Shown here piece after piece: positions 3,862-59,156 of a stretch of 64,000 bases of DNA. Below the pieces are notes generated by a model. It saw only the letters and a list, made by a program, of their open reading frames with translations. It was not told where the DNA came from and did not search any database. A program made the translations under genes and the position numbers. Numbering within the stretch: position 1 is the stretch's first letter; every line of letters starts with the position of its first letter. Source of the stretch: a virus; IMG/VR virus record IMGVR_UViG_3300030090_003481, positions 4,312 to 68,311 of that record; one strand, 5' to 3'.

Positions 3862-5280
3862 ATGGCGAGAGCACAAAGTAAACTTACGGTTTTAACTAGA
3901 CCATGGCACGCCAATTTCACTGAAACGAATCATTTAGGAGCTGCGTTTATGGCAGAGCCGCATAAGTTCGACAAAGTGTTAACTCGTGTGTTTACAGCGT
4001 CTAGAATAGCAGATAATCCATTAACTGCTATGACTAAAGGTATGGGAAGAACTCAAGAAATTTCTTCATTCGATTGGGAATGGGAAATGATGGGATCATC
4101 TTCTAGACCTTTAATTGCAATAGAAGATATGGAAACTGGTACTACTCCAGGAAAATATGGTGTTGAGTTTAAAATTAAATTAGACGAAGACTGGTTTAAG
4201 CCTGGTGATGTAATTACTCCAGATAAGAAGTATTTATGTAGAGTACAAAGAGAGCCTGTTGCAGATGGTGATGGATATATCTATTACTTACAATTAATGG
4301 GTGATGATCAAAACGCGTTTTTAGATCCTGATTATACTAAAGTTGGAGTACAATGGAGTAAATTATTCTCTGTGTATGAAGAAGGTGGTGATCAAAGTGG
4401 TTCTACTACTTACGCAATGCCAATGAAGTTACGTTCTAATCTATCTACTTATAGAAAAGAATATTCTGTAACTGGTGATGCGGCTAACCAAGCTTTAGTA
4501 ACTGCACTTATGGATGCTAACGGTAAAGTATACAAAGACTATAAATGGTTAAAGTATGCTGAGGCTGAGTATTGGATCCAGTGGTATAAAGAAAAAGAAA
4601 GAGGTCTATGGTATGGTCAAACTAACAATTCTGTTAGTGGAGCTAATGGTAGAGTAGCAAGAACAGGTCCTGGTGTTCAGGAATTGTTAGCTGATTCTCA
4701 TGTACACCATTATTCACAATTAACTGAAAAGTTAATTAGAGAATACTTATTAGATATTTTCTTTGGAAGAGTTGATATGTCAAATAGAAATATTGTAGCG
4801 TATACAGGTGAGTATGGTATGTTAGCATTCCACCAAGCTATGATGAATTCTTCAGCTCCTTTCTTAACTACTGATTCTAAATTTATCCAAGGAAGCGGAA
4901 ACAATTTATCTTTTGGTGGACAATTTGTGAAGTACAATGGACCTAATGGAATTACTTTAACATTAAGACACAACCCTGTGTATGATGATAGAGAAATTAA
5001 TTTCAAACAACATTCTTCACTTCTTGTACCTACTGAGTCAATGAGATTTACTTTCCTTGATTTTGGTGGAAAAGGTGGAACAAGTAATATTAAATATGTA
5101 CATAAAAAAGGAGGTTATAAACTAGGTTACGTTTCTGGTTTACAAACTCCATATGGAGCAAATAAAGGTGGGTTAATGAGCAATGCAAAAGATGCTTATA
5201 CAATGATTGTTCACGATCAATGTGGTGTTCAAATTGATGACGTTACTAGATGTGGTGAATTAATCTTGTCTGAGAACTAA
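3862..5280 (+). CDS. Major capsid protein (crAss-like, HK97-fold expected)
   Basis: This 472-aa protein has the size and position expected of the crAss-like major capsid protein, directly after the acidic scaffold candidate and before several small head proteins. The N-terminus is basic and polar (Arg-Pro-Trp-His near residues 13-16). The body is a regular mixed alpha/beta sequence without low complexity, signal peptide or membrane segment. Codon use looks more balanced than in the neighbours, with more C in third positions, as is usual for a highly expressed gene. No proteolytic maturation site is evident. The start at ATG 3862 follows an A-rich leader. I rely on order, length and a remembered family resemblance. 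A different coat or decoration protein is the alternative. Confidence 0.72.
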   Translation: MARAQSKLTVLTRPWHANFTETNHLGAAFMAEPHKFDKVLTRVFTASRIADNPLTAMTKGMGRTQEISSFDWEWEMMGSSSRPLIAIEDMETGTTPGKYGVEFKIKLDEDWFKPGDVITPDKKYLCRVQREPVADGDGYIYYLQLMGDDQNAFLDPDYTKVGVQWSKLFSVYEEGGDQSGSTTYAMPMKLRSNLSTYRKEYSVTGDAANQALVTALMDANGKVYKDYKWLKYAEAEYWIQWYKEKERGLWYGQTNNSVSGANGRVARTGPGVQELLADSHVHHYSQLTEKLIREYLLDIFFGRVDMSNRNIVAYTGEYGMLAFHQAMMNSSAPFLTTDSKFIQGSGNNLSFGGQFVKYNGPNGITLTLRHNPVYDDREINFKQHSSLLVPTESMRFTFLDFGGKGGTSNIKYVHKKGGYKLGYVSGLQTPYGANKGGLMSNAKDAYTMIVHDQCGVQIDDVTRCGELILSEN

Positions 5281-8409: not shown

Positions 8410-11400
8410 ATGTCAATAAATTATAATAGAAATTTACATAGCCCTAAAAGGGATTATAAAAAAGATAATACTGTTAATCAAGTTAGTGGTTGGAGACCTT
8501 ATTCTCCTAGTTTAAAAACACCACATAATAATACAGCATTATCTCAACTTTATAATACCCCAAACAGTAATTCTGTTAGAGTCGCTCAAGGTGTGCCTTC
8601 AGGTCCTATAGGATGTGATGTTAGTTTTACAGAAGGATGTGACTTTGGAGTTAATTATGTAATTTTAGAATGGGATTATCTTCATTTACAAAATATTGAA
8701 ACTAGTATAAATGGTGGTCCTTGGGTTAATCATGGTTGTGGCGCATTGTCTCCTATGACTAATAATACGGTTACACAAGGAGACACTATACAAGCAAGAG
8801 GAGTATGTAGTGTAAGTATAAATCATGATGGTGCTGCTGAATGTGGTACTAGTGAGATAGCTTCAAATACAAATATATATGTATTTTATGATGTAACTTC
8901 AATGGTATATGCTACTGCTCAAAATTTTAGAGATGCAATAGAAGATTGGGCTGCTAATAATATAGCTAATTATGAAGGTAATATTTATCACATACCTGTC
9001 ATGCACGAGAGATGGATACTATGGGTACAATACCCTTTAACAGGTATACTTCCTCCATATTATCAATTAAGTCAGTTTTCTCCTATTGATATGCAACAAT
9101 ATAACTCTTTTTGGGATGGATCAGGATATACAAATAATAATGGAACTACTATGCCTATTGGAAACCCAGGGCCTAAAAATTCTTCTGGTAGTCGAAAAAG
9201 AGTTCCTTGGGCTGGCCCTCTTGTTGTAGGAGAAACATTAGATGATTATAATCAAACATTACCTGATGCAAACGGTACACCAGGGGCAGGCTCTCAACTA
9301 CTACAAGGTACGGGATCTTGTAATATGGGTGAATATGGTAGAGCTAACTGGAGTTATAGAAAAGGAGGTGTTTTACCTTTTATTAATCTACCTAAAGCTG
9401 GAGATATAATACCTAATTTTCAAGGAAGTGGTTCAGATCATATTATAACTTTAGCAGAAGCTGCTGATTTAACAGATATAAAAAGCGGTGAATGGTTAAA
9501 TAATACTACAGGAGGTGAATGTGATGCGGGAGGATCTAGAGCACAATTTGTAGGGGGAGATGTAGATGCTTTAGTAATTTGTTTATCTGATGAAACAGTA
9601 CACGGTGTAGGATGGGAGCAAAAAACTGATGCTGGTTTAAAAATGGCAGAATCCTCATTATCTGGATTCTGGGAAGGTTATCATGGTAGGACTGGAAATG
9701 GAGATCATACTAAATTAACAGCAGAGTTTCATATGGCTGGATCAACACCAACAGTAAACGATTCTTTAGCAATATCAGAAGCTAAATCACACTATTATGT
9801 AGTATGTTTTGGTAATGGAGGAAGATTTAGACATCATGATGGTGCTACAAATTTATGTACTTGGAGTTCAAATCCTAGTAAAACTTATAAACCAAATAGC
9901 GGTACTCCTGGTTATTCTGATAATGAATTTAGTGGTGATTTTTATGTTGGAGCCTATGATTGGGAAAATGCTATTGCTGGTACATTTTTTAAACCAAGTT
10001 TATCACATCCTCAAGGAGATATTTTCTTACACTTTAGAGATGCTAATTTCAGTGACTATCCTTCTAATGGTTGGTATGATCAATGGGCAACTGGTGTATA
10101 TGACGTAGAAGTATTTTGTGGTCAAAACTGGTGTCCAGGGGCATCAAACGGTTGGGAATCAGGTAGTTGTAATTTTGAAGTATTAAGTCAACCTACTCCA
10201 GGATATATAGCTGATTTTAAATACCATTTAGAAAATATATATCCTATCATACAAAACGCTGATGCTGCTAGTTCAAATGGATGTAAGTTTAGTACTTTCT
10301 TTTATGTAGTAACTAATGATAATACAAATAATGCTAGAACAGGAAATTCTTTATGTACTGTAGCAGCTTTAGAAGGTACTACTATTGGAACTTTTGATCA
10401 ATATAAGACTTATAATAATGCAGCTGGTATAGCTACTTATTTTCCTGATACTAATAACGGAGGTAGTATGCCTAGAACAGCAGGAGGTGATATTAGTATA
10501 GACGCTTTAGGATTTTTTAATCCTTATGGGTATGAAGATAATACAGGTAAGCCTATATATTGGCATCCTGATAATGATCCAGGAGTAGGATTTGATATAA
10601 AAAATCACTCACATTTTAAACCTTCTGTAGGACCAAATAATATACCTGGTTATGGTTTTAAATGGTATGCAAAAGGTTCTGCTGGTAAATGTGGTTATAA
10701 TATAAGAAGAGGATCTGGTGTAACAGATGAAAATATAAATAGCGATTTAAATGATTTTATAGCAGGTGGAGGTATTTCTTGTGATGGTCAAGATTGTTTA
10801 TTATTTACAGTAGTAGATAATACTGGTAATCCAATACCTAACTATACATTTGATTTTAATAATACTAATGTAACTACAGATAATAATGGAGAGTATGGTA
10901 CTCAAGTAAATCCAGGAGTATATACATTCTTATGTGGTTATCATATGTTTAACACATCTCCAAGTACTTGGATTAATGGTAGTACTCCTGATCATACAGA
11001 TATGACAGTAGCAGATCCAAATACACAAGCTAATATATATGGCTGTAATGCATGGAATATAACTATTACGGTTGACACTTTTAATACTACTTTAACTCAA
11101 AATTGTAAACTAGGATGTACAGATGGAACAGGTTTATCGAATCCTGTAGGTTCATCTGCAGCATGTAATTATGATCCTACTGCAGGCGTAGATGATGGAT
11201 CGTGTATATATGCTGATTGTAGTGATATGTGTCCAGATCCTAGTATTATAAATTATACAGCTTATTCAGGTTTAGGTATTTATCCAAGTGGAGCTTCTTC
11301 AGTATTTCCTTTTGCTTTTCAACCTGGAGGTGGAGATGCTTATTATAGCCCTCAGTGTCCTAATTGTTGTGTTGGTGGTAACACAGGAGTATTACCTTCT

Positions 11401-11820
11401 GATTGTGTAGATTGTTTAGGAGTATGTGGTGGATCAGCTACTTATGATGAATGTGGGGTATGTGATGGTCCTGGGCCAGATGAATGTGGTGTTTGTTTTG
11501 GAGATGGTACTTGTTGTGTAGGATGTACAAATCCATTAGCAATAAATTATGATCCTACGGCTACAATAGATTGTGAAGAATGCTGTGAGATCCCAGATTA
11601 TGCCTGTCTAATAAAAGAATTAGCAATAAGAATTTTAGATTCTTGTCCAGAAGACTGTGATGACAGCTTAAAAGAAATGTATAATGAAGCATTTACATTA
11701 TACTATTCTTTAGGTTTTGTTGATCAAGCTTCTGATATAACTGATATAGAAGTTAATAGTATTATAAAAAAGCTTCATAGGTTATTAAGTAAAGTTGAAT
11801 GTGGTAATTGTTGTAAATAA
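8410..11820 (+). CDS. Large Cys-rich fibre/adhesin-like protein with VWA-like segment
   Basis: A 1136-aa protein without signal peptide or membrane segment, so probably a virion appendage. A strand-loop VFYDVTSM (residues 158-165), a later DALVICLSDE segment (about 385-394) and IFLHFRDA (about 540) are spaced like core strands of a VWA/Rossmann fold and recur in the next gene. The C-terminal 250 residues carry two divergent Bacteroidetes 'GCT(D/N)...NYDP...DDGSC' modules, a Cys-rich 'DECGVCDG' stretch, and a final 70-residue helical domain capped by CxxxC and CGNCC motifs. Members with GCTD modules are usually secreted host surface proteins; here the gene sits between head and lysis genes. 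A receptor-binding or head/tail fibre role is inferred. Catalysis is not suggested. Confidence 0.55.
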   Translation: MSINYNRNLHSPKRDYKKDNTVNQVSGWRPYSPSLKTPHNNTALSQLYNTPNSNSVRVAQGVPSGPIGCDVSFTEGCDFGVNYVILEWDYLHLQNIETSINGGPWVNHGCGALSPMTNNTVTQGDTIQARGVCSVSINHDGAAECGTSEIASNTNIYVFYDVTSMVYATAQNFRDAIEDWAANNIANYEGNIYHIPVMHERWILWVQYPLTGILPPYYQLSQFSPIDMQQYNSFWDGSGYTNNNGTTMPIGNPGPKNSSGSRKRVPWAGPLVVGETLDDYNQTLPDANGTPGAGSQLLQGTGSCNMGEYGRANWSYRKGGVLPFINLPKAGDIIPNFQGSGSDHIITLAEAADLTDIKSGEWLNNTTGGECDAGGSRAQFVGGDVDALVICLSDETVHGVGWEQKTDAGLKMAESSLSGFWEGYHGRTGNGDHTKLTAEFHMAGSTPTVNDSLAISEAKSHYYVVCFGNGGRFRHHDGATNLCTWSSNPSKTYKPNSGTPGYSDNEFSGDFYVGAYDWENAIAGTFFKPSLSHPQGDIFLHFRDANFSDYPSNGWYDQWATGVYDVEVFCGQNWCPGASNGWESGSCNFEVLSQPTPGYIADFKYHLENIYPIIQNADAASSNGCKFSTFFYVVTNDNTNNARTGNSLCTVAALEGTTIGTFDQYKTYNNAAGIATYFPDTNNGGSMPRTAGGDISIDALGFFNPYGYEDNTGKPIYWHPDNDPGVGFDIKNHSHFKPSVGPNNIPGYGFKWYAKGSAGKCGYNIRRGSGVTDENINSDLNDFIAGGGISCDGQDCLLFTVVDNTGNPIPNYTFDFNNTNVTTDNNGEYGTQVNPGVYTFLCGYHMFNTSPSTWINGSTPDHTDMTVADPNTQANIYGCNAWNITITVDTFNTTLTQNCKLGCTDGTGLSNPVGSSAACNYDPTAGVDDGSCIYADCSDMCPDPSIINYTAYSGLGIYPSGASSVFPFAFQPGGGDAYYSPQCPNCCVGGNTGVLPSDCVDCLGVCGGSATYDECGVCDGPGPDECGVCFGDGTCCVGCTNPLAINYDPTATIDCEECCEIPDYACLIKELAIRILDSCPEDCDDSLKEMYNEAFTLYYSLGFVDQASDITDIEVNSIIKKLHRLLSKVECGNCCK

Positions 11821-11832
11821 AAATTAAAAACT

Positions 11833-14800
11833 ATGGGATGTGCAACTAATTGTGGATTTGGTACGATAACAGTAACTTGTGTTACACCTTCATATCCTGT
11901 TCAAGCAACTGTTTGTTCTGGTAATGGTCCAGGTAATCTTTTAGGATCATGTGCTAGTTTTCCCAATGCTCCTAGCCCATTTGCTTATGGGTATCAAACT
12001 AATCCTGCATTATTTAATAATCTAGGTTTACTTCTTACTATTCCTGTAGTTGGTGATATACCTATTGTGTATATTGGCACACAAGTAACTAATGCTATAT
12101 CTAAAACTTTAGCTATTTCTGGTTCACAACCACTTCAATCTACAGCCTTATCTTTACAAGGAGGTACTGTAATATCTCAACAAAATCAATTTCCACAAAA
12201 TCCACAAAACGCTTTAATTCATTATAATTCAGGTGGATTAATAGAACATTTATTACCTCCTACATTTCCAACAGGTGCGACATTGTATTATGTTTGGGGA
12301 TTATGTAATGAATATGAAATAGAAGCAACTCCGTGGACTGATGCTCAATTTCAAGCTAATGGGTGTGAAAGTACTGTAACTACACCTAATCTTAATGTTA
12401 ATGATGATAAAATTGTTATATTTTATGATATAACTTCAATGAGTTCTTCTATTATAAGTAAAGCAAGTGATACAGTAGCTAATTTTTTACAGCAATATAA
12501 TTTTACTAATGATGTATTTGAATATAAAATTGGAGGTGAAAGATATTTACAATGGCCTACTGCTCTTGTACAACCAAGTAGTCTTGCAAGTTATTTAAAT
12601 AATGGTGTACTTAATGCACCATCTATAAGTTATCATACAAATCCAAGTATAGCGTCTGGTCCTTGTGTTGTTAATAATGGGCTTTTTCAACATAGTCCTG
12701 ATCCTCTTGGACCAGGTCCTCATGAAGATGTATTATGTTTAGTATTTTGTGACGAATCTGCATGGGGTATTTATTATGGATATAATAATGATACTGGTTC
12801 ACTTTGTTATCAATATGGTGCGAATCAACTAGGTTTAGCTAATAATTATAGTTTTAGCCATTTAGGAGCTAATGCTTTATCATGTGAAAATACACCTGCT
12901 AATAGTAGCTCAGCAAATGTAGGTTATGCTCACGTTTGGAAAGCGGGATGGCTTCAAGGGTTATCTTCTCACGTAGGTGGATATTTAGATACAGATTATA
13001 GAGATTATTTAGAAGCATATGATAATAGTCAAGGTGGAGATAATTTCCAAGATAATAATATTAGAACAATTGTTTTTGCAGAATGTGAAGAGCCTAATCC
13101 AAATAATATGGGATATGGTTCTACGCCTGGAAATAAGAAAAAAGCAATGACACAGCATTTAACAAGAATGTTTGGTGGAAATAATATATCTCAACTAAAT
13201 GATTATACAACTCAATTTAATTTTTCACCTAGTTATACTGTTAAAACTCCTTTTGATAATCCACCAGCTGGTAATAATAATCCTCAAGGTTATAGTTTTC
13301 ATGGTGTAAATAATATAGGGCCTATATCAGGTGGTTTTACTAATTATCATGATAGATATGTAAGCCCAACTCCTGGAGGAAATGGTCCTACAGATAGCCC
13401 GCCTAATTCTCATGACGAAGATTCTTATTGTAAATTAGATCAAATTGCTGAAAACATTTTAGGACCTGGATCAGATTGGTCATTAAAAGGCAGAAATATA
13501 ACTCCTGCTTTTATGGGTACTGGTGCAAGTATATACAATCAACATTATAGACCAGCAAATGATACTCCAGCAACTCCATGGAATGACATGAATGTAGTTA
13601 CTCACGATGGATTAGGAAATCCTCTTAATCCAGGGTATTGGCCAAATAGATTATTTTATGAATTATATAAACAAATTTTTGTTTCTACAGGTACTCCAAC
13701 TACTACAACAGTTTTAGGGTGTGGTCAGAATGATCCGAATAATCCATGTGGAGATACATGTCATGTAGATATTAGAGTTTTTAGAGATGTAGACGGTGAC
13801 TGTGAAAGAGATCTTGCTGAATCTTTAATTTCATATATAGATATTGCTATAGAAGATCCTCAAGGTAATATCACAATACATAATACAAGTCAATTTGGTT
13901 CAATACAATTAACTAATATACCTGTTGGTGTATATAATATAAATGGAAAAGTTTGTGATTTTAGCGCACCTTGTATGACATATAATTGTATGATACCATT
14001 ATATGAAACAACATTTACAAATAGTGCGCATTGTGTATTAGGTTGTACTAATCCAAATGCAGTAAACTATAACCCATTAGCAACTGTAGATGATGGTAGT
14101 TGTGAGCTTCCTGGGTGTATGCATGAGTGTGCAATAAATTACGATTCAGATGCAAATATAGAAGATGGGACTTGTTGTCCTTGTCTTGAATTAGAATATA
14201 TCGTAGAAGAATCAGTTAGAGGATATGCACATGAAATACAACTTACAATAGAATGGCCTCTTAATAGTTCTAACTTTGGTGGTAGTAGCACTGCTAGTCC
14301 ACCAGGAAGTACTTTAGCAGCAGGTCTTAGTACTACTACATATGGGGCACCTTTAATTATATATCAAGATACTTTTATATACGATCCTCTTCAAGGTATT
14401 ATTGGGCCTAATGGCGCTATATTAGGATTACATAGTTTTAGTTTAATACTAGATAAAGGTAATTTAATACTAGATGCAGGTTCATGTGAATTAAGCAGTT
14501 ATTGCTGGGTAGTTAGATGGGATGTTCAAAGTAATGAACCAGCTTTAGCATTTGATAACGCAGCGTGGACTAATATACAGATGGGTAAATTTAAATTATC
14601 TGCATATGATAATAACTCATTATATGTTTATGTACCATTTGAAGATGGTTGGGTTTTTATGGGTAATGCAATTGGCGGTATACCTTGGCCACAATCTCAA
14701 GATTTATATAGTCCTCAAAGTTATCAAAATTATTTAAACTTCCTCGACAATTATTATCAAGGTAATGTTCCTTGGCATCTAGCAGGAGGTTCTATAAATG

Positions 14801-16725
14801 GAGGAGGTGGTTTATCATCTTTTGCTGGTATGAATGCTTTATTTTGGGGAGCTATAGGTTGGGCAACAAATTGGTTTAATATAGCTATTTCAGAAGGAGT
14901 AGATTGGTTATCTCAAAATGGAGGAGTAATTGTTACACAAAATTCTACAGGAGGTGGTGTAACTGTTTCAATTCCTGATACTGATCAAAATGTATCATAC
15001 GCACATGGTGGTATAAAAGGAATAAATGATCAAGGATTTAATGCTCAATATGCTAATGTATGTGGTGATCCACCAGATGGTTGTACAGATCCACTAGCAT
15101 TGAATTATAATCCAGCTGCTGGTGTACAGTCTGTAGGTAATCCTGCTTCAGGATATTCTGGTCAGCAAGGTGCCTGTGTATATGAATGTGTAGAAATAAT
15201 TGTAGAATTATATTTTACTGCAGTTAGAGTTTTTGGAGAATCAAAACAAATAGGATCTATAGGACAATCAGGGACTTGGTCATATAAAGCAGTAACAAGA
15301 GATGAAACTATTCCAGCTAATCCACAATATGGTTGGTATAATGGAATACCTTTAAAAGAAATGGGGTCAGGAGATTTTGCTAATGATATTAAATTCCAAT
15401 TATTAGATGAACAAAATAACGTAGTTTATGAATCTGGTATAATAACACATCCTGATACAGCTACTGGAGGTTGGAGATTAAGATGGGGTTGTTATGATGA
15501 AAATGGTGCTTTTGTAGATACAGGTGGTATAGCGGGAATAAGTGAAACTAGTTTAGCATGGAATTCTCCAAATCAAACTGGTATACAAACTTGGCAACAT
15601 TCTATGGGTGTAAGTGGTTGGTCTCTTGGAGCTAATAATACAGGGACAACAACAAGTTCTGGTTTAGGTATAGGTATTGGAAATGAAGTAATTTCTGAGA
15701 GTAATCAACATTTATATCAAACATATAGATGTGAAGCTTTAGTACCATGTGCAGAAGATCCTTGCTATAAATTTAAAAGAGTAGGTACTTGGGAAAAAGG
15801 ATGGGAATCTATAGGAGCTAATATAACTATTTTAGTTAAAGGATCTAATGGAAATATAAATAATCCACCAACTTCAAATAATCCATATAATACAGCAGTT
15901 ACAAATAGATTAGCAGATTATCATATTCCTCCAGGATGGTATAAATTAAACTTAACTAAGTGGGGTGGTCTTAATGCAGCAAATTCAGTATGGGCTACAA
16001 ACTGGGAAAATGAAAGAGAAGTAGTTTTTGCTGTAAATTATCAAAGTGGTGCTAATCCTTTTATTGGTGATACTACTACTTTCCAAGGACAATATTGGAG
16101 TTTATGGGGTTGTGTTACTCCTGGTAGTAATATACCTGTTACTGGTGGTACTGGTCATAACTCAGGAAATCCAGGATCTTCTCCAAGGTTAGGATGTACT
16201 GATCCTTTCTCAGATAGATTTGATTTCTTTGCAACTGAGTCTGATGGTTTATGTAGAAATTCAAGAACTTATACTGAGTTTACAACATTAAAAGTAACTG
16301 TACAAGTAGGAGGTAGTACTATTTTAAAAAGTTTTATAGAAGCTGAAAAATTTGAATCTACTAATTCAAATATAGGACAAAGACCTTATGATACAGGTAC
16401 AAGACAAATGACAGAAGATCAAAGAAATTCAAAAAGAAAACTAAATAAAGTATCAACGTCAGGTAACTTTTTTGAATTTGTTATTAAAAGAAATCCTGAT
16501 GAGGATGAAGAAAAATTAGAAGATGGAGTACAAACTAATATGGAATTTGGTAGAGTTTTAGAAAAAGATGTTAGAGCAGGTGGAAAATATATGTATGAAA
16601 TAGATGTGCCTTATGGAGAAAATGTTAGTTTTGATATTATAGATAATTTTGGTAGAGATCTAGAATATAAAATAGAACAAACAGGAGTTAGAAAAAGAAT
16701 AAATAAAGGACCTAAAAAATTATAA
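11833..16725 (+). CDS. Giant fibre/adhesin-like protein, VWA-like segment and four GCTD modules
   Basis: A 1630-aa partner of the preceding gene, 12 bases downstream. Residues 197-203 (FYDITSM) and the later CLVFCDESAWG segment match the VWA-like segment of the 1136-aa protein, so the N-terminal 600 residues of both are probably homologous. After a Cys-containing Asp-rich stretch (HVDIRVFRDVDGDCERD, about residue 645) come four GCTD/GCMHEC-type modules: two adjacent near residues 737-775, one near 1083 and one near 1456. Two beta-rich domains sit between and after these. The last about 150 residues are charged and basic (GVRKRINKGPKKL). No signal peptide is present. Probable role: trimeric or multidomain virion fibre that contacts host glycans or protein. 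This is inference from repeats and position. Confidence 0.55.
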   Translation: MGCATNCGFGTITVTCVTPSYPVQATVCSGNGPGNLLGSCASFPNAPSPFAYGYQTNPALFNNLGLLLTIPVVGDIPIVYIGTQVTNAISKTLAISGSQPLQSTALSLQGGTVISQQNQFPQNPQNALIHYNSGGLIEHLLPPTFPTGATLYYVWGLCNEYEIEATPWTDAQFQANGCESTVTTPNLNVNDDKIVIFYDITSMSSSIISKASDTVANFLQQYNFTNDVFEYKIGGERYLQWPTALVQPSSLASYLNNGVLNAPSISYHTNPSIASGPCVVNNGLFQHSPDPLGPGPHEDVLCLVFCDESAWGIYYGYNNDTGSLCYQYGANQLGLANNYSFSHLGANALSCENTPANSSSANVGYAHVWKAGWLQGLSSHVGGYLDTDYRDYLEAYDNSQGGDNFQDNNIRTIVFAECEEPNPNNMGYGSTPGNKKKAMTQHLTRMFGGNNISQLNDYTTQFNFSPSYTVKTPFDNPPAGNNNPQGYSFHGVNNIGPISGGFTNYHDRYVSPTPGGNGPTDSPPNSHDEDSYCKLDQIAENILGPGSDWSLKGRNITPAFMGTGASIYNQHYRPANDTPATPWNDMNVVTHDGLGNPLNPGYWPNRLFYELYKQIFVSTGTPTTTTVLGCGQNDPNNPCGDTCHVDIRVFRDVDGDCERDLAESLISYIDIAIEDPQGNITIHNTSQFGSIQLTNIPVGVYNINGKVCDFSAPCMTYNCMIPLYETTFTNSAHCVLGCTNPNAVNYNPLATVDDGSCELPGCMHECAINYDSDANIEDGTCCPCLELEYIVEESVRGYAHEIQLTIEWPLNSSNFGGSSTASPPGSTLAAGLSTTTYGAPLIIYQDTFIYDPLQGIIGPNGAILGLHSFSLILDKGNLILDAGSCELSSYCWVVRWDVQSNEPALAFDNAAWTNIQMGKFKLSAYDNNSLYVYVPFEDGWVFMGNAIGGIPWPQSQDLYSPQSYQNYLNFLDNYYQGNVPWHLAGGSINGGGGLSSFAGMNALFWGAIGWATNWFNIAISEGVDWLSQNGGVIVTQNSTGGGVTVSIPDTDQNVSYAHGGIKGINDQGFNAQYANVCGDPPDGCTDPLALNYNPAAGVQSVGNPASGYSGQQGACVYECVEIIVELYFTAVRVFGESKQIGSIGQSGTWSYKAVTRDETIPANPQYGWYNGIPLKEMGSGDFANDIKFQLLDEQNNVVYESGIITHPDTATGGWRLRWGCYDENGAFVDTGGIAGISETSLAWNSPNQTGIQTWQHSMGVSGWSLGANNTGTTTSSGLGIGIGNEVISESNQHLYQTYRCEALVPCAEDPCYKFKRVGTWEKGWESIGANITILVKGSNGNINNPPTSNNPYNTAVTNRLADYHIPPGWYKLNLTKWGGLNAANSVWATNWENEREVVFAVNYQSGANPFIGDTTTFQGQYWSLWGCVTPGSNIPVTGGTGHNSGNPGSSPRLGCTDPFSDRFDFFATESDGLCRNSRTYTEFTTLKVTVQVGGSTILKSFIEAEKFESTNSNIGQRPYDTGTRQMTEDQRNSKRKLNKVSTSGNFFEFVIKRNPDEDEEKLEDGVQTNMEFGRVLEKDVRAGGKYMYEIDVPYGENVSFDIIDNFGRDLEYKIEQTGVRKRINKGPKKL

Positions 16726-16727
16726 TT

Positions 16728-17627
16728 ATGGCAGAAGAATATCCAGAACAAGCACCAGCTCAAGGAGAAATCCCAGAAAATACTCTAGCACCACAGACAC
16801 AGGTTAGTGACGAAGATGCACCAAGAGAAAGAAGAAGAACAACAACTCCTGGTGGAGGAGATAGTGGAACAGGAGGAGGTGTTTCCCAATCTGAAGATGT
16901 TATTTCTTCAGTTGGTAGATTAAACGTAAGAAGAGAATCTACTAGTAAAGCTGGTGGCTATGGTCGAGGTGGTGGTAATTTTAAAATAGCTTCTGATCAA
17001 CCAGGAGGAAGAGTTGCGGCAGGAGTTTATTTTGGATGCACAGATCCTAAAGCTGCTAATTATAATCCATTAGCTACATTAGATGATGGTTCGTGTAAAG
17101 AAGAAGAGATGACTAAACCAGATCCTAAAGTTATAAGTGGTTTTAGTAAGTATTTACAATACCCTGAAAAAAAACTTAAAAATTTTAATTTTGGGTTATT
17201 TAATTATTTACAAGGTTTTGATAGTTTAAATCCTGATGTACAAACACCTACAGGTGTTGTATTAGATACAGCGGTTGAAGGAGAGCAATCTAGCACTGGT
17301 AATAATAATACTTTTCGTGCAGGTGTAGAAGAACCAAGATCAAATTCTAATACTACATTTACTGATTCAGAAGATAATGAATTTGCGACTGAAATGGATA
17401 AAATACTTAATCTTTATATTCAAGCTTCATACATTGTTGCTTCACAAAAACAATGTGGAGATTGTAGTAAACAACTTGAAAAAGATTATTTAAATGCTGT
17501 AGCTTTAATAGATGCATTAATGATTGTATCAAGCGATGTAGGCGCTTTGTATGATTGGAAAGAATCAACAGATAAATTAAATACAACATTAACTAATATA
17601 GTTAATAGAAAATGTAAAGATTGTTAA
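16728..17627 (+). CDS. Fibre-associated protein with one GCTD module and Cys-capped helical domain
   Basis: A 299-aa protein starting 2 bases after the previous stop. Residues 1-90 are a Pro/Glu- then Gly/Arg/Ser-rich, probably disordered arm. A single well-preserved module, GCTDPKAANYNPLATLDDGSC (split here as GCTDPKAANYN, about 105-115, and PLATLDDGSC), follows. The C-terminal 80 residues form an all-helical domain bounded by CGDCSKQ and CKDC, the same type found at the end of the 1136-aa protein and the start of the next protein. This suggests the three proteins interact or share an attachment module. Function is otherwise unknown. Confidence 0.5.
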   Translation: MAEEYPEQAPAQGEIPENTLAPQTQVSDEDAPRERRRTTTPGGGDSGTGGGVSQSEDVISSVGRLNVRRESTSKAGGYGRGGGNFKIASDQPGGRVAAGVYFGCTDPKAANYNPLATLDDGSCKEEEMTKPDPKVISGFSKYLQYPEKKLKNFNFGLFNYLQGFDSLNPDVQTPTGVVLDTAVEGEQSSTGNNNTFRAGVEEPRSNSNTTFTDSEDNEFATEMDKILNLYIQASYIVASQKQCGDCSKQLEKDYLNAVALIDALMIVSSDVGALYDWKESTDKLNTTLTNIVNRKCKDC

Positions 17628-17628
17628 A

Positions 17629-19410
17629 ATGAGAAGAACAAGTAGTCAAAATAAAAACCAAGCTCCTGACTTTTTATCAAATATATTAAGTAATTGCGGT
17701 TTGAGTAATTTAGTAAGTTTAGAAGATTTTGTAAAATTTGCTTCATTTTATTCAGTAAGTCAAGCATATGGATCTAATTGTTCTGATTCTTTAAAAAGAG
17801 ATGCTAAACTAGCTATGTCATTACTTATGTCTATAAGTATAGAATCACAATTACAAGCTAGTCAATTAGGTAATTTAAATGAAATAGGTATATGTACTAT
17901 AGCTAAAAAAATAGCTAAACTTATTAAAAAGTGTTGTTCTCATCCAGATTTTTTTAGTGTACTTCGTAAACAAAAAGAAAAAGATAAACAAGCTAAAGGT
18001 AAGCATTTAACTATTGAAACTAAAAACGAAAGACTAGGTTTAACACCAGAATCTGATTTACAAAATATTGAGAATATAAAACTAGATCTTACTTATATCC
18101 CTAACTGTTCTAATGTTAGAGAAATGATACCAGGTAATAATAACCTAGGTAATAGAGTTACAGGTATAACTCATAGTGGTAAAAACATTCCTGTAAATAG
18201 AGATACTTGTTTAATCTCAGGTAAAATTTGGAATACTATAAATTCTACCTGTTATTGTATAGATGAGAAACAAACACCTCATCTTAGATACGGAGATACA
18301 AAAATAAGAAAAGATAATTTTCATTTAGGCCCTCCTAGAAATTGGTCTAAAGTTACTGCAATAACACAACTAAATCTAGACAAAGAAGCTAGAGAAAGAT
18401 TTGAAGATATTATTGCACATAAAGAAGGTATAAATCTAGATGATTTACAAAAAACAAAATGTGGTGAAGAAGATGGATGTGTATGGTATTCATGTTTAAT
18501 AGAAGGAATAACTAATTACTTTTTAGGTTGTAAAAAAGATAAAACAGGTAAAATAAATTCTTGTTATTTTAATAGAAACTTATTAAAAAGTACAAGAATA
18601 TCTTCTGAAGATAAAAGCAAGATTATGACAGCACAACAAAAAAGTATAGAAAGATGTTGTGATAAATGTTATGAATCTGGGTGCGGTTGTAAAGATGGAG
18701 CATATGGATGTGAATGTACAGGTGTAAGTAGTAATGGTGTACCATGTTCTCAGATAACTGCAAGATCTGCACAATCTTTAAATAGAGTAACTGAAGGCGA
18801 CCCTATTTTAAAAACTAATAATTTTAATTCTGATAGTCATATTATGACAGGACAAGAAACAACTGTAACATGTTGTGGAGCTAGCGCTCAATGCCCTCCA
18901 GATATGACTGATGCTGATTGTTGTAGACAAATATGTAAAGAAATAGAAATTCAAGATATTTTAAGAACAGATCCAAAATCTATTAGTAGAGTTAGGAATA
19001 ATGATACTCATGTAGGAAAACATATAGGAGGAACTTGTACATGTAAAAAATGTGGTGCTCAAGCAAAAGTAGCTAATGCGCAAGCATGTCAATGGTGGCT
19101 TAGTACACATAAAGAAACATGTAATCCACCGACTGATGATTCAAGATCTTTGCCTGAGACTTGTAACAAAATATCACATAAGAATTTTACTATAGCAGAT
19201 ATGTATGATTTTAAAATTACAAAAGATATAGTTTCTTATGGCAGTGATGTAGAAGGTTGTTGTAGAGGAAATGACGGTGGTTGTTGTACTTGTTACTCAG
19301 GTAAACTTTCTTGGCCTTGTTGTTGTAGCGGTACTAAAGAAGTGACAAATTGTTGTCATGATAGAATAGATTTAAAAATAACTACAGCAGGTAGAAATAA
19401 TAGATATTAA
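17629..19410 (+). CDS. Exceptionally Cys-rich protein of the fibre block
   Basis: A 593-aa protein with about 44 cysteines, many in CC, CxC and CxxC clusters (for example SGCGCKDG, GCEC, CTCKKC, CCTCYSG, PCCCSG). The first 100 residues are a helical domain with Cys at both ends, related to the C-terminal domains of the two proteins encoded upstream. The middle (about 110-330) is basic and polar. The C-terminal 250 residues hold most Cys clusters and end in a short basic tail. No signal peptide or membrane segment is seen, so disulfides would have to form after lysis or the cysteines bind metal. Its place at the end of the fibre block suggests a virion surface protein. I do not recognise the family. 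Confidence 0.5.
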   Translation: MRRTSSQNKNQAPDFLSNILSNCGLSNLVSLEDFVKFASFYSVSQAYGSNCSDSLKRDAKLAMSLLMSISIESQLQASQLGNLNEIGICTIAKKIAKLIKKCCSHPDFFSVLRKQKEKDKQAKGKHLTIETKNERLGLTPESDLQNIENIKLDLTYIPNCSNVREMIPGNNNLGNRVTGITHSGKNIPVNRDTCLISGKIWNTINSTCYCIDEKQTPHLRYGDTKIRKDNFHLGPPRNWSKVTAITQLNLDKEARERFEDIIAHKEGINLDDLQKTKCGEEDGCVWYSCLIEGITNYFLGCKKDKTGKINSCYFNRNLLKSTRISSEDKSKIMTAQQKSIERCCDKCYESGCGCKDGAYGCECTGVSSNGVPCSQITARSAQSLNRVTEGDPILKTNNFNSDSHIMTGQETTVTCCGASAQCPPDMTDADCCRQICKEIEIQDILRTDPKSISRVRNNDTHVGKHIGGTCTCKKCGAQAKVANAQACQWWLSTHKETCNPPTDDSRSLPETCNKISHKNFTIADMYDFKITKDIVSYGSDVEGCCRGNDGGCCTCYSGKLSWPCCCSGTKEVTNCCHDRIDLKITTAGRNNRY

Positions 19411-21495: not shown

Positions 21496-21496
21496 A

Positions 21497-36900: not shown

Positions 36901-39479
36901 ATGAATATTATGACAAACCTTTAGTTAATAGACGTATTGTTGCACAAGCTTATGCAGCAGCTAAAGGAGGATCTGTTAAAGCTACTTTTAGTAGCGATGA
37001 TTTTAAAAATGGTTATTTCCAACAAGAGTGTTACGTATATGAAATAATGAATAGTATTTATGACTATGATCATTATGAAGATATGGAAAGTGCAGGAGAT
37101 AGAAATGGTATGATGAAAGTAGGAGTTCCTTATCCGTATCACAGATCTTATAGTAATGGTTGTAGTAGAGATCAAGATGTCCCTCGAAATAGATTTATGC
37201 AACCTCCTGCAGATAATAGCTGTTATCAACTAGATGATTCAAATAGCGGTATGGATCATTCAAAAGGTTATAGTGGTAAGGGTAAAGTACAAGCTAGTGC
37301 TTATTATGTTTCTCTTAAACAAAATGCTCCTAATGCATTTGGTAATTTATCAAATATTGATTATGTACAAACAGGTAATAAAATAAATAGATTAGGAAAA
37401 GATTATCCTGGTGTTGGATTAGTAGATGATCCTACTGATAATGGTTTTATTATGTTTGGAGGGGATGCTTTTATATCTAAATTCGCATTTAGAAAAACTA
37501 ACCATAATGTACTATGTTATAATTGTGATGGTGGAATTACAGGAGGAGAATTCTCTAGATTTGGAGGTATGTTCCATAATAGTATTGTACATTACTATGT
37601 AGAGTCATATATAAATTGTGAATATAGGCATAGTCAATGTACAGCATCACCTGGTACATCTACATCTTTATCTGGTTTAAGCACAAATGATTATGATTCT
37701 CATTATCCTTATTGTACACTAGGAAATATTAATGATGGTTTTGGTTTACATGGTGGAGGGTTTTTAGATTCAGAAGATAAATACGGAATATCTGACGGTA
37801 CAAAAAGTACAGAAAAAATACCTGGCAATAAAATACATATCAATAAATATAATTTAAATTATGATTTTATAAAATCTAATACAGAAAAAAGATATAGAGG
37901 ATTACCTATGACTTATGATTACTGTAGCGGATGTTATGAAAACTATCCAACAAGAATTGTTTATTCACAACAATCATTTAAAGAAGAAGTATCAGATAAC
38001 TATAGAGTATTTTTTGCTGAAAATTATTCTGATATACCTGGTCATACAGGAGATATTACAAATCTATTTACTATAGGTAATACAATATACGCACACTGTT
38101 CTGAATCTTTATGGAGATTATTTAAATCAAGACAAGAAGTAAAAACAGATAATGTTAGTCTTAGAATAGGTACAGGCGCTTTCTTAGCAGAACCACCACA
38201 ACAAATGACTGAAGCAGAGTTTGGTTATCTAGGATCACAATCTCAGTGGGCTACAATAGTAACTGAAAATGGTACATTCTTTGTTGATTCTAGGCAAGGA
38301 AGAGTATATTTATTACAAGGAGATAAACCTGTAGATTTATCTAATGTTAGTATGAGAAATTTCTTTGAGAATAATCTAACTTTAGAAATTAATGAACAGT
38401 ATGAAAGATTAACGGGTGATAAATTTCCTTTAGGTGATCATCCACATCACCCTGAAGGATCAGGATTTATAGCTGCATATGATTCTAGGCACACTAGATA
38501 TATACTAACTAAAAGAAGTTATGTATGTTTAGATGAAGATGCTTTATTAAATGGTTATAGAAAAGTAGAAGGTACTCGTGATTTTGATCCTGATAAACCA
38601 TACTTATGGTTAAAACAATACGGTACATCAGATAGTGGTTGGAAAAGATGGGTATACAAAGCAAACAAAACAGCTAGTATGCAGTTTGTAAATAATAGTC
38701 CAGCGTTTTTTAGAGACACAAGTTATACAGTAAGTTTTAATTTTAGTTTAGGAGCATGGGCATCATTTCATAGTTACAAGCCTAATGCATATGTAATATT
38801 TAAAAACTCTTTCTTTAGTAAAGAAAATAGTTGGAATGTTGATAACTCAGATACTTTATATAAACATGGCGTATCTCCTGAAGGAAATAATTATACTTGT
38901 TTTTATTCATCAAATCCATCACCATTTGCTGTAGATTTTATTGTAACTCAAAATGGATTAACAACTTTTGAATATAACAATATACATTGGATAACACATG
39001 CTTCTGTATATAACCCAACTACTAGAACATATACTGATCAAAGATATTTTACATTTGACCATGTATTATTTTATAATAGTTATCAATCTAGTGGCCTTAT
39101 TAATTTAATAAATAAAGATGGTGTTCCAACAGCCTTAACAACAATATCTAATTTTGATTCACTACATGTAGGACAAACTACTATAGCTAGAAAAGAACGT
39201 ACTTTTTCTATGAATGCTTTACGAGATGCTGTTATAGATAGAACACAACCTTTGTTTACAAAAGACTGGAATGATAATAATTATCAATTTGCTCATAACC
39301 AAGGTTATTTAGATGCTATTAACTCAAATGCAGTTGGTGTTAAGCCTTGGTTCCAAGCTGAGAGATTTAGAGATAAATACTTGGGAATTAGGTTAATTTT
39401 TAGTAACTTTGTAGGTACAGATAATTGTAAACTGATCTTTAATTATTTGTATACACAACAAACATTTACAGCTAGGTAA
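33906..39479 (+). CDS. Tail muzzle/tail-tubular protein (crAss-like, P22 gp10-like)
   Basis: An 1857-aa protein following the ring proteins. It starts with an acidic arm, then SPGKGLNTDTSPE (19-31) and SYRFALNA, the opening typical of crAss-like muzzle proteins, which form the distal tail tube and are beta-propeller-rich. Internal NNNTVRVLNL and, near residue 1460, ENGTFFVDSRQGRVYLLQ are propeller-blade-like. The central 1000 residues are unusually rich in Tyr, Asp, Gly, His and Cys, with low helix content, and are longer than I recall for the family; they may form a receptor-contact insertion. It shares its last base with the next start. Some members of this group carry spikes, so a receptor role is possible. 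Confidence 0.68.
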   Translation: MAEEEKEQSASLKSSLTSSPGKGLNTDTSPEAQPERSYRFALNAMNESQEGDQGFLINEQGNYECGSLNTSDWLVIGHVYTTEDTAIVFLAPRGAGDIGMGKIVEITDSCKSTTIMTSDCLNFSAEYPVQAVYRIRRGCERHIYFTDNNNTVRVLNLDSLRDYLKEGLEDFIIDNPDSYQESPSIWDCEKMGMFPNMTIPDIFIESIIDGGGTLKVGAYQFAVAYQDEDLNSTNFFDISNPIPITKDPIGSPLNEADAFDIQGSEPGETTEKTINLRFDNVDTSFTFLRLVCLPSTSGTGNIDGDVWEIANIPISSETVEFAFSGWDETATPKLGLDDLLIPSLVFERAKTLEQIDNRLVLGNIGNSVTNWSKFQQAANDIAIKYYTTPLYAYSTHHGGPTSYRYYSDYRTFMRDEVYALGIVWIFRNGQESPVFHIPGRKANRDPFGTPYAFNGIPGADPNNPESVDHSSAARAHYNGMIRAEHNRRPIENGFSNSDPDKGGWDTDPVATSLGDKSVSDGDTNHINAMSRDCNTEHLVGYSSAQDGNVARTQRWNVWNTAIRDKYYWLDEDGNRSTRSEDSTTLITEGHMGYYECRDKAYPDKKDCSGARVFPDGNIRHHRMPDTTLEPHYYGDPYRRVRDNSGTAQYCTNTNPYCINDTWVDPSTKYFLTGNNDYGAGWGMGDGAGPAEPANDDSYLLERIISLGIKALNVNIPAGFEDRLQGFKIVRGIRTDQDRSVLDKGITMYNNWGSIAGRCEPETGVGNAGAYVNGWQPAVSSASSWEQCGGLTKGFRHGENSSGWGNKNDWRQCVNDEVTTLLRPYGNYPENCNSNVANNRCMPWWAENDCGPDHSCIEGTGSNGGCGYVEHKPFVGYPHANMPCSRVTTSGSGWGRHTQIFSGGLFNIAYHGPLGKFSTSNINAEYVKYERILVGRVNVTRHNSHEGCDDCGYRPASWTFQYCDFSMSFIPTHDQGRLFRGGAYDGGDDQGGSYDSYVGHEYYDKPLVNRRIVAQAYAAAKGGSVKATFSSDDFKNGYFQQECYVYEIMNSIYDYDHYEDMESAGDRNGMMKVGVPYPYHRSYSNGCSRDQDVPRNRFMQPPADNSCYQLDDSNSGMDHSKGYSGKGKVQASAYYVSLKQNAPNAFGNLSNIDYVQTGNKINRLGKDYPGVGLVDDPTDNGFIMFGGDAFISKFAFRKTNHNVLCYNCDGGITGGEFSRFGGMFHNSIVHYYVESYINCEYRHSQCTASPGTSTSLSGLSTNDYDSHYPYCTLGNINDGFGLHGGGFLDSEDKYGISDGTKSTEKIPGNKIHINKYNLNYDFIKSNTEKRYRGLPMTYDYCSGCYENYPTRIVYSQQSFKEEVSDNYRVFFAENYSDIPGHTGDITNLFTIGNTIYAHCSESLWRLFKSRQEVKTDNVSLRIGTGAFLAEPPQQMTEAEFGYLGSQSQWATIVTENGTFFVDSRQGRVYLLQGDKPVDLSNVSMRNFFENNLTLEINEQYERLTGDKFPLGDHPHHPEGSGFIAAYDSRHTRYILTKRSYVCLDEDALLNGYRKVEGTRDFDPDKPYLWLKQYGTSDSGWKRWVYKANKTASMQFVNNSPAFFRDTSYTVSFNFSLGAWASFHSYKPNAYVIFKNSFFSKENSWNVDNSDTLYKHGVSPEGNNYTCFYSSNPSPFAVDFIVTQNGLTTFEYNNIHWITHASVYNPTTRTYTDQRYFTFDHVLFYNSYQSSGLINLINKDGVPTALTTISNFDSLHVGQTTIARKERTFSMNALRDAVIDRTQPLFTKDWNDNNYQFAHNQGYLDAINSNAVGVKPWFQAERFRDKYLGIRLIFSNFVGTDNCKLIFNYLYTQQTFTAR

Positions 39480-42247
39480 TGAAATATAGAAATAAATATC
39501 AAGCACAAGGAAGTGTAGGAGCATCATTCGGAAGAAACAATGCGCCACCTCCACCACCAGGCAAACCAAGATTAATGGATCATGTTATTGATGTTGGGGA
39601 GTTTGCTTTAAATCAAGTGTTAACTCCTTTTGAAACAATAACAGGAACTAACTTTTATGACCCTAAGTTTGAAAGTGATTTTATGCAAAATACTAGTGAT
39701 ATAAGTTCAGCTATTATAGGAGCTGGTACAGATATAGCTGGTACTATGGTAGCAGGCCCTTTATATCATGCAGGTAAATTTGGACTAACTAAAGGTAGTC
39801 AAGCTTTAGGATTAAAAGATAATACACATTCAGATCATAATGCATGGGCTGAAAAGACAGCTTCTACTATTGGTTTTGTAGGAGATGCTGCAGGTGTTTT
39901 AGCTGGAGGAGTTGCTGAGCACGGTGGTAAAATTAAAAAACACCAAACTACAGGATCTGTATTTAATACTAATTTAGGTCTTGGTGGTTATGATTTAAAT
40001 AATTTAGGTATAGGTATGAATATGTTTAATAATAATGCAGGTTCATTACAATTTCCTGAATTAGCTGGAAACTATCAAAATATGATGAGTACTGATTTAT
40101 CAGCTTCTACTTTTCAACCTAGTAATATGGGCTTTAATGTTACTCCAAGTAATTTTGGGGATCCAGGTACATGGGGTCAAAATACAGTACCAACTGAATT
40201 TGGAGGAGGAACATATTCTACAACAAGTAATTACTGGAGACCATTTACAACTGAGAAAGGTAATCTATATAGAGGTCTAGAAGGAGGTCAACATCTTACT
40301 AATAAAGATATAACTTTATTAACTCCAGACTCTAATGTTACTCAATTTGATCCAAATCTAAATTCATATGTAGATGCAGCAGGAAATCCAACAGAATATT
40401 CTGCGTCATTCACACCGAATAACTACAATATGTTTAATAGATTTAGTGATAAATTTATAAAACCATTTGCTAATCAAACTGCAGTAGGAGCTCAACAATA
40501 TGGTGATGCAATGGGAAGTAATTTTAAAACTTTATTTGGAAAAGGTCAGGGTAATCTAACAACAAGAATAGGTAATCTAGATGCTAAAAGTTTAGGACAA
40601 ACAGTAGGATTAGCATCTGCAGCTGCAGGTATATATAATACTTGGAAGCCAGGCGCAAGAACTCAATCTCAACTAGTAGGTGATGCAGAAGCAGCATTAG
40701 AAGCTAGTAATCAACAAAAGCTTCTTGATGAAGGATGGATGGGTGGTGGTAATACAGGGTTCTTTAGAGCAGCAGAAAGAGGAGGTAATATCGGTGAATG
40801 TAAAGAATGTAATAAGATGAGAAAACATATGATGAAATACTACAAAGGAGGCTCTGTCAAACCTCAAAAAATGGAGATGGGGACCAATCCTGATATAATG
40901 TCTTACTTAAGTAATTTAAAAGTAGGTGATAAATTTAGTAACTTATTAAATACTGCTACAGATAAATTTGGGGAACTAAAAAGTTATTTTAATCCTAGCG
41001 ATGAAATGCCTTATGGTTTAAAGAATGTTACTTATAGAGGTAATAAATTTACTAGAAACCAAAATATGGATGAGTTTGCAAGACTTGGTAAAAACACAGT
41101 AGTAGGACAAGATAGAACATATGATGATTCAGCTAGACAAAATAATGCAGGAATAGGTTATGATAAAAAAGGTATACTTTCTAACTTAGGGCCTAACCAT
41201 AGTAAATATAAAATGATGCAACAGCATTTAATGGCTGAGCGTGGCGGTAATATTCCTAAAGCACAATATGGTACTAGTAGTTTTATGAGCGCACAACCAA
41301 GATTTAGCACTCAGTATAATCTTCTAGGAGAAAATAAAGGGTTAACTACTTTAGGTTTTGGCGCAGATTTAAGAAATTGTTGGGGAGGTACTTGTAGAGA
41401 TATAGGCGGAGGACAATTTCTTCCAGGCTTCTTTGGTAACTTTACTCCTTATAAAGGTATGGTTCAATCTAATTTTTATAATCCTACTACAGGTGAACGA
41501 GATAGTGAAATGGTTGAAAAATTGAATATGAAAGGTAATATAGGAGCTAGAGGAAGACTTAATTTAGATTTATATTCATTAGGATCACCTTCAGGTGTAT
41601 TTGCAGAAGGGTTTGGTGGTATTAATATGGATTCAGATTTTAATAAATTTTATGGAGGTAAAGCTGGGTTACAATTTAAATCTACAAGACCTCAAAAATT
41701 ACCTACTTTCGGTAATTATAGAGCAAAATCACATGCAGACTTTATGCCTCAATGGCAACTAGATTTATATGGTAAATACGCTTCAGATAAAGGTAAATCA
41801 CTTGGCGCAGATTTTAGATATGGTGTATTAGGAGGAGGTATTGAACATAACTTAGATACAAAACAAACTAATATTATGGGAGGTCTAAGATGGAATCTTG
41901 AAAAAGGTGGTGGTGTCAATAACCCAGGATTTAAAGCATTACCTGGTTATGTACAAACTAAGATATTAAGTAATATGGAGATGGGTGGTAATGTAGATCC
42001 TAATTCTTCAGGAGATGTAGAGATAGAAGTAGAAGGTGGAGAGACTATAAAAACTATTGATGGACAAAATAAAGAATTTTTTGGACCATCACATGATCAA
42101 GGAGGTATTATTACAAAAGCTAATGATGGTGATTTCGTATATCCTAAAGGAACTTGGTCAAAAAGGCATATAAAAAGAACTGAAAGACAAGCCGCAATTC
42201 TAGCTAAGTTAGAAGAGGCAGGTATTAACACTGAAGGACTAGTATAA
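39479..42247 (+). CDS. Internal virion (cargo) protein with GGE...GPSHxQGGI C-terminus
   Basis: A 922-aa protein rich in Gly, Asn and Phe. It has a Pro-rich arm (PPPPPGKPR, about 22-30), a Gly/Ala hydrophobic stretch (about 75-145), two ERGGN motifs (433-437 and 587-591) and a C-terminal block VEGGETIKTIDG...FFGPSHDQGGI followed by a basic helix. That C-terminal block is one I recall from internal or ejected proteins of crAss-like and related Bacteroidetes phages. It is coupled (TAATG) to both the muzzle and the following gene. Likely packaged in the head or tail lumen and ejected with the DNA; function beyond that unknown. Confidence 0.55.
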   Translation: MKYRNKYQAQGSVGASFGRNNAPPPPPGKPRLMDHVIDVGEFALNQVLTPFETITGTNFYDPKFESDFMQNTSDISSAIIGAGTDIAGTMVAGPLYHAGKFGLTKGSQALGLKDNTHSDHNAWAEKTASTIGFVGDAAGVLAGGVAEHGGKIKKHQTTGSVFNTNLGLGGYDLNNLGIGMNMFNNNAGSLQFPELAGNYQNMMSTDLSASTFQPSNMGFNVTPSNFGDPGTWGQNTVPTEFGGGTYSTTSNYWRPFTTEKGNLYRGLEGGQHLTNKDITLLTPDSNVTQFDPNLNSYVDAAGNPTEYSASFTPNNYNMFNRFSDKFIKPFANQTAVGAQQYGDAMGSNFKTLFGKGQGNLTTRIGNLDAKSLGQTVGLASAAAGIYNTWKPGARTQSQLVGDAEAALEASNQQKLLDEGWMGGGNTGFFRAAERGGNIGECKECNKMRKHMMKYYKGGSVKPQKMEMGTNPDIMSYLSNLKVGDKFSNLLNTATDKFGELKSYFNPSDEMPYGLKNVTYRGNKFTRNQNMDEFARLGKNTVVGQDRTYDDSARQNNAGIGYDKKGILSNLGPNHSKYKMMQQHLMAERGGNIPKAQYGTSSFMSAQPRFSTQYNLLGENKGLTTLGFGADLRNCWGGTCRDIGGGQFLPGFFGNFTPYKGMVQSNFYNPTTGERDSEMVEKLNMKGNIGARGRLNLDLYSLGSPSGVFAEGFGGINMDSDFNKFYGGKAGLQFKSTRPQKLPTFGNYRAKSHADFMPQWQLDLYGKYASDKGKSLGADFRYGVLGGGIEHNLDTKQTNIMGGLRWNLEKGGGVNNPGFKALPGYVQTKILSNMEMGGNVDPNSSGDVEIEVEGGETIKTIDGQNKEFFGPSHDQGGIITKANDGDFVYPKGTWSKRHIKRTERQAAILAKLEEAGINTEGLV

Positions 42248-44793: not shown

Positions 44794-44803
44794 ATTATAA
44801 ATT

Positions 44804-47908: not shown

Positions 47909-47916
47909 AAAGTATT

Positions 47917-58926: not shown

Positions 58927-58948
58927 CATTCGCAAAACATATAAAAAA

Positions 58949-59053
58949 ATGATGAAAAAAAGAAAAAGTTATAAAAGAGGAACTGCAGTAAAAGCATATG
59001 GAAAAGGTGGACCAGTTAAAAAAAGAAAAGGATATGGCAGAAAGAAAAAGTAA
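58949..59053 (+). CDS. 34-aa Lys/Arg-rich small protein
   Basis: ATG-ATG start after an A-rich leader. The product is about half Lys/Arg with Gly, Tyr and no acidic residue, like a small nucleic-acid-binding or condensing peptide. It overlaps the next frame by 20 bases. Coding status is inferred from the compact layout. Confidence 0.4.
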   Translation: MMKKRKSYKRGTAVKAYGKGGPVKKRKGYGRKKK

Positions 59054-59156
59054 TAAGAAAAAAGGAGCCGATGGTAAAGCATGTTGGAAAGGTTATAGAT
59101 ATGCTGGAACTAAGAACGGTAAAGATAAGTGCGTAAAAGTTAAGAAAAGAAAATAA
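59034..59156 (+). CDS. 40-aa basic protein with CWKGYR...GTKNGKDKCVK motif
   Basis: A short basic protein (MAERKSNKKKGADGK start) followed by A-C-W-K-G-Y-R-Y-A-G-T-K-N-G-K-D-K-C-V-K. I recall a similar short CWKGYxxxGTKxK...CV motif at the ends of structural proteins and as tiny standalone genes in marine phages and viruses. The two Cys could bind zinc or form a disulfide. Its stop shares a base with the next gene's start (TAATG), which suggests it is translated together with the 1246-aa internal protein. Confidence 0.5.
   Translation: MAERKSNKKKGADGKACWKGYRYAGTKNGKDKCVKVKKRK

Follow-up and report, generated by a model that had tools for sequence, protein, structure and literature searches.

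The tail block of this crass-like phage appears to have multiplied a cysteine module of tail-hub type, and the 593-aa protein that closes the block, the one densest in cysteine in this phage, leads to a module family tying tail genes in marine crass-like phages to the structurally solved, disulfide-bonded hub of crAss001. On balance we favour a reading in which the 593-aa protein sits on the outside of the virion as a tail-appendage or hub-associated part, docks through its N-terminal module and has cysteines that form disulfides after lysis. The stretch of DNA analysed here (the window) covers 64 kb out of a viral record 95,091 bp long, and the phage is crass-like given its phrog_11589 capsid protein and a gene order (capsid, ring, auxiliary, tail block, ring proteins, muzzle and giant cargo proteins) that agrees with those of crAss001 and phi14:2. 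The capsid protein matches 146 phage records, chiefly crassviruses and Fipvunavirus, with FpV4 the closest annotated phage by this protein. The annotated relatives infect Bacteroidota, and the phage is presumably marine, judging from the original prediction and from phi14:2. The genes on which the argument turns are as follows.

3862..5280, + strand: major capsid protein (phrog_11589, E 9e-136; 46% identity to Flavobacterium phage FpV4)
6967..8340, + strand: 457-aa protein at the auxiliary-capsid (crAss001 gp36) position, at the start of the block (phrog_15060, E 1.3e-7; gene order)
8410..11820, + strand: 1136-aa protein with 48 Cys, adjoining the auxiliary-capsid-position gene, with a C-terminal Cys module (module hmmsearch E = 5e-11)
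11833..16725, + strand: 1630-aa member of the block, 42 Cys, carrying a GCTNPNAVNYNPLATVDDGSC-type repeat
16728..17627, + strand: 299-aa protein immediately upstream of the 593-aa gene, with one GCTDPKAANYNPLATLDDGSC repeat and a C-terminal Cys module (...NRKCKDC; module hmmsearch E = 6e-7)
17629..19410, + strand: gene of the 593-aa Cys-rich protein, closing the Cys-rich block
39479..62896, + strand: five large proteins at the cargo (ejected-protein/RNA polymerase) position, placed by comparison with crAss001 gp45-gp50

The Cys-rich block (8410-19410) thus follows the auxiliary-capsid-position gene and precedes the later tail-ring and muzzle-type genes. Repeats of the form GCTDPxAxNYNPxAxxDDGSC are present in the proteins that neighbour the 593-aa protein. 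Downstream of the block, a gene at 19822 encodes a signal-peptide protein and another at 25519 a holin-like protein. Between these, a small thioredoxin-fold protein (21461-21853; PF00085, E 5e-5) carries an apparent signal peptide, lacks the CxxC active site and is conserved in relatives close to the Cys-rich block. A 797-aa protein (22418-24811), again with an apparent signal peptide, carries many repeats of the GCTDP type; its 674-aa relative in locus L088 matches PF18962, the type IX secretion C-terminal sorting domain, at E 4e-5, which is under the curated cut-off, and the 797-aa protein is possibly a phage-encoded cargo of the host type IX secretion system.

The 593-aa gene starts with ATG and runs for 593 codons, and a count of its ORF turned the original prediction's figure of about 44 cysteines into exactly 44, or 7.4% of residues. 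The other 34 genes of the window hold 246 Cys in 19,771 aa (1.24%), against which at least 44 Cys has a binomial P of 1e-20; against the remaining proteins of the block (3.5%) P is 5e-6, and roughly 14 Cys would be expected from the base composition of the gene itself. The density was also said to be rare in tailed phages, a statement that needs limiting: in related phages, similar Cys-rich ORFs stand at the same position. Related contigs were gathered via the capsid protein (59 loci) and via a conserved downstream protein (80 loci); the same stretch in them holds different Cys-rich ORFs with up to 7.8% Cys, and ORFs of 561 aa with 41 Cys, 535 aa with 40, 531 aa with 40 and 333 aa with 26 occupy the position of the 593-aa protein. 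Clustering of the cysteines had likewise been proposed, and here the pairs fared differently when set against permutations of the same residues: CC is enriched (9 pairs vs 3.2 expected, P = 0.002), CxC occurs 6 times vs 3.2 (P = 0.095), and CxxC is at the level that chance gives for this composition (3 vs 3.1). Read by eye, the protein begins MRRTSSQNKNQAPDF and has no visible hydrophobic N-terminal signal, in agreement with the original prediction. Most of the cysteines fall into one part of the protein.

18460..19356, + strand: residues 278-576 of the 593-aa protein, Cys-dense and fast-evolving, with 35 of the 44 Cys and no detectable relative

AlphaFold2 (AF2) gave the complete protein a pLDDT of 39, a model unusable past the N-terminal helices.

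The sole homologue of the 593-aa protein is at locus L002 (10001-11782) and is 96% identical. Pfam, PHROG, NCBIfam and PDB hold no match to the protein, tblastn found no relative among annotated phages, including FpV4, and scans of viral contigs with full-length and partial queries, and of GTDB genomes, returned nothing besides L002. The same was true of 43 related virus records, some of which are short fragments unable to show absence. The L002 copy is interrupted, with TGA at codon 352 where the window has TGC (C352); assembly or sequencing error, decay of a dispensable gene, or recoding may each account for it. Comparison with L002 gives a pN/pS of 0.61 for the 593-aa gene and 0.07 for the gene at 19822, rough values that rest on 31 differing codons. 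Retention of 43 of the 44 Cys in L002 was considered as evidence of conservation and dropped, because 22 changes placed at random over the 593 residues would be expected to strike Cys only about 1.6 times.

What links the block to known virion proteins is a three-helix Cys module of about 75 aa, newly defined here and without match in Pfam or PHROGs. Its profile was seeded from the C-termini of the relatives' Cys-rich ORFs, many of which terminate in CKDC, CKNC, CINC or similar, and the window's sequences were left out of the seed. Three places in the window are assigned to it.

11539..11817, + strand: C-terminal Cys module of the 1136-aa protein (hmmsearch)
17343..17624, + strand: C-terminal Cys module of the 299-aa protein (hmmsearch)
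17719..17937, + strand: probable divergent Cys module, residues 31-103 of the 593-aa protein, with Cys 51, 89, 102 and 103 (hhalign, hmmsearch, low-confidence AF2)

The best match of the profile in a reversed database reached E 0.09, as against 5e-11 and 6e-7 for the two neighbours of the 593-aa protein. Iterating the profile brought in 28 copies, including stand-alone proteins of 75 and 91 aa, and the four most conserved cysteines of the module, kept in 27, 27, 25 and 21 of 27 aligned copies, sit where helix 1 turns into helix 2 and where helix 3 ends.

The N-terminus of the 593-aa protein is probably a divergent copy of this module, as judged from sequence comparison. Residues 49-101 taken alone align with the module in register at a score of 20.8 (maximum of 100 shuffles, 18.5). 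When the N-terminus is paired with an 84-aa ORF of locus L045, which phmmer ties to the 593-aa protein at E 0.023, hhalign scores 28.5 and the highest of 200 column shuffles 20.7, and the hhalign probability goes from about 10% for the single sequence to 59%. By hmmsearch the N-terminus scores 7.4 bits, a value reached by 1 of 500 shuffles, and a database search by the module profile gives no significant match for the 593 N-terminus alone. The low-confidence AF2 helices (31-46, 53-75 and 88-103) resemble the three helices of the module in its better model. Small Cys-rich helical proteins take the block-end place in loci L083, L087, L088, L089 and L045; the family from the first four of these scored 17.2 against the 593 N-terminus, inside the shuffles (maximum 17.8), and was not used. 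Two block-end proteins of relatives (L089 8748-9290 and L083 14061-14927) have a C-terminal YNNGLGYxxxDIVxxxxxYW that by eye resembles small chitin/carbohydrate-binding modules and has no Pfam match, and a 1290-aa block protein of locus L085 (6849-10721) shows, again by eye, an apparent intein/hint-like stretch, GGCFLEGTKVRTPKGEKMIESI...FANNTLVHN.

The module profile also finds g087 of phi14:2 (19.5 bits, reached by 0 of 500 shuffles), which is recorded as a structural protein by MS/MS, and the corresponding stretch of that phage, g087-g080, consists largely of proteins recorded as MS/MS-detected in virions. In the window's relatives the module forms the C-terminal part of proteins of 167-205 aa (hhalign 93.6%), and AF2 models this hub-like family at a pLDDT of 81 as seven strands and three helices, a beta-sandwich plus the module. 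Three of the best viral fold matches to the model come from the gut crassviruses cr118_1, cr128_1 and cr111_1, whose genomes have proteins of matching lengths (184, 167 and 206 aa, the identity of fold model and gene being deduced from organism and length) at the position of gp38, the tail hub; two of these carry the TPR note of gp38. A profile of five hub-position proteins scored 29.0 against the 167-aa family, with a shuffle maximum of 19.9. By sequence the module profile did not match crAss001 gp38, and in a PDB fold search of the hub-like model the hits were generic Ig-like/FN3 folds, with 7qoj (gp38) not among the best 50 matches. The link to the hub is drawn from fold, gene position and phi14:2 g087. 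In both location and predicted structure, the module-bearing proteins of the relatives correspond to tail-hub-A orthologues of crassviruses. In crAss001, gp38 is tail hub protein A, and tail hubs A and B lie in the stretch that corresponds to the block. Cryo-EM of crAss001 virions shows disulfides joining the hubs to one another and to ring proteins (PMC10172136).

Cysteine is also unevenly divided among the virion-position proteins of these phages. The window's cargo-position proteins have 6 Cys in 7719 aa (0.08%) and its other virion-position proteins 215 in 8370 (2.57%; Fisher p 8e-53). The corresponding counts for cargo and other virion proteins are 7/7478 and 75/7651 in crAss001, 6/6990 and 38/6816 in phi14:2, and 4/7213 and 72/5649 in FpV4, with the cargo assigned by position in the window, phi14:2 and FpV4, and Cys is the most depleted residue of the cargo proteins in all four crass-like phages. 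Proteins taken as ejected have 1 Cys in 2261 aa in T7, 0 in 4294 in N4, whose ejected set (gp50-gp52) was partly our own choice, and 0 in 1309 in P22, so that over seven phages the putative or known ejected proteins run from 0 to 0.09% Cys vs 0.56-2.6% in the other virion proteins. Text searches of the literature returned no statement of Cys depletion in ejected proteins, and cysteine goes unmentioned in a review of ejection proteins; the pattern may still be known.

The cytoplasm is reducing, and lysis releases the virion into an oxidising medium. The 593-aa protein would therefore be made in reduced form. Its N-terminal 100 residues or so, as a divergent three-helix Cys module, would attach it to the hub/fibre collar, with the C-terminal part, with its 35 Cys and many vicinal CC pairs, as the distal part. 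In the oxidising medium the cysteines would pair as disulfides, locking the hub/fibre assembly and stabilising the distal part. The putative ejected proteins would unfold through the tail later and, being nearly free of Cys, would not be trapped by cross-links. The original prediction had disulfides forming after lysis to armour the virion in oxic seawater. Virion location and extracellular disulfides are now the best reading of this, given the position of the block at the tail hub and fibres, the module in phi14:2 g087, the hub disulfides of crAss001 (PMC10172136) and the Cys partition; armour as such is not supported, an appendage of the tail being a better fit than a shell, nor is the specific link with oxic seawater, since a gut crassvirus has hub disulfides as well.

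One might instead suppose that the cysteines stay reduced and bind metal, whether as a metallothionein-like store or in several structural zinc sites, and whether the protein is in the virion or in the cytoplasm. CxC and CC are also found in metal proteins, stretches such as CTCKKCG have a ribbon-like look, and the four conserved module cysteines could make one Zn site; but CxxC is not enriched, Pfam and NCBIfam searches returned no zinc-family match, and the paper on the crAss001 structure speaks of disulfides 7 times and never of zinc (PMC10172136). Metal clusters, the other option that the original prediction had named, thus seem unlikely to us. The 593-aa protein could also be a late protein from outside the virion, such as a Cys-rich host-takeover or lysis-related factor, that stands at the block end by chance. 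Its gene borders those for the signal-peptide, thioredoxin-fold and holin-like proteins (19822, 21461 and 25519), evolves fast relative to the gene at 19822, has L002 as its only close relative and is interrupted there. Against this stand the small Cys-rich helical proteins at the same block end in five related loci, the similarity of the 593 N-terminus to the module and a Cys density typical for the block, and we consider such a role quite improbable. That the gene is in decay or has lost its function, leaving its Cys content as a relic, is suggested by the TGA at C352 in L002 and is very improbable indeed, as the window copy is open across all 593 codons, pN/pS is below 1, L002 keeps its other 43 Cys, and one base error in a metagenome assembly could account for the TGA.

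To the reading of an external, disulfide-forming appendage or hub-associated protein we would add, tentatively and as something on the doubtful side, a broader proposal: that short-tailed virions, including crass-like ones, follow a redox rule by which hub and appendage cysteines cross-link on release and ejected proteins are purged of Cys. In the marine clade the module would then have spread to several fibre proteins and a 44-Cys appendage, with redox as a checkpoint between assembly and extracellular locking. The data indicate a testable rule, with exterior tail proteins Cys-rich and ejected proteins almost Cys-free, and the proposal, if true, would explain how virions cross-linked after lysis can still eject proteins of multi-hundred-kDa size.

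The nearest known systems share parts of this arrangement. FpV4, a Fipvunavirus, has the gene order of the window and at the hub position gp18, with 13 Cys in 248 aa, and differs in having no relative of the 593-aa protein. L083 (561 aa, 41 Cys), L089 (535 aa, 40 Cys), L087 (110 aa) and L088 (105 aa) share block position, Cys density and helical Cys modules, but have no significant sequence similarity to residues 125-593; as read from sequence, several Cys-rich ORFs of marine relatives have carbohydrate-binding-like or repeat stretches instead. In the cultured marine crassvirus phi14:2, g087 (186 aa) carries the module and adjoins the auxiliary capsid gene; unlike the 593-aa protein, it has 6 Cys and a single module copy with no Cys-rich extension. 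The layout of tail hub A, an N-terminal beta-sandwich and then a C-terminal helical Cys module, differs from that of the 593-aa protein, whose helical part is at the N-terminus with no beta domain ahead of it. Set against crAss001 gp38 (PDB 7qoj, 7qol, 8ckb), the 593-aa protein has only the hub-like module, at its N-terminus, followed by a 480-aa Cys-rich extension that has no counterpart, and the window's clear module copies are fused to the 1136-aa and 299-aa proteins. It is nevertheless like gp38 in its position after the auxiliary capsid gene and in being Cys-rich, gp38 having 11 Cys in 215 aa and a collar that is stabilised by disulfides.
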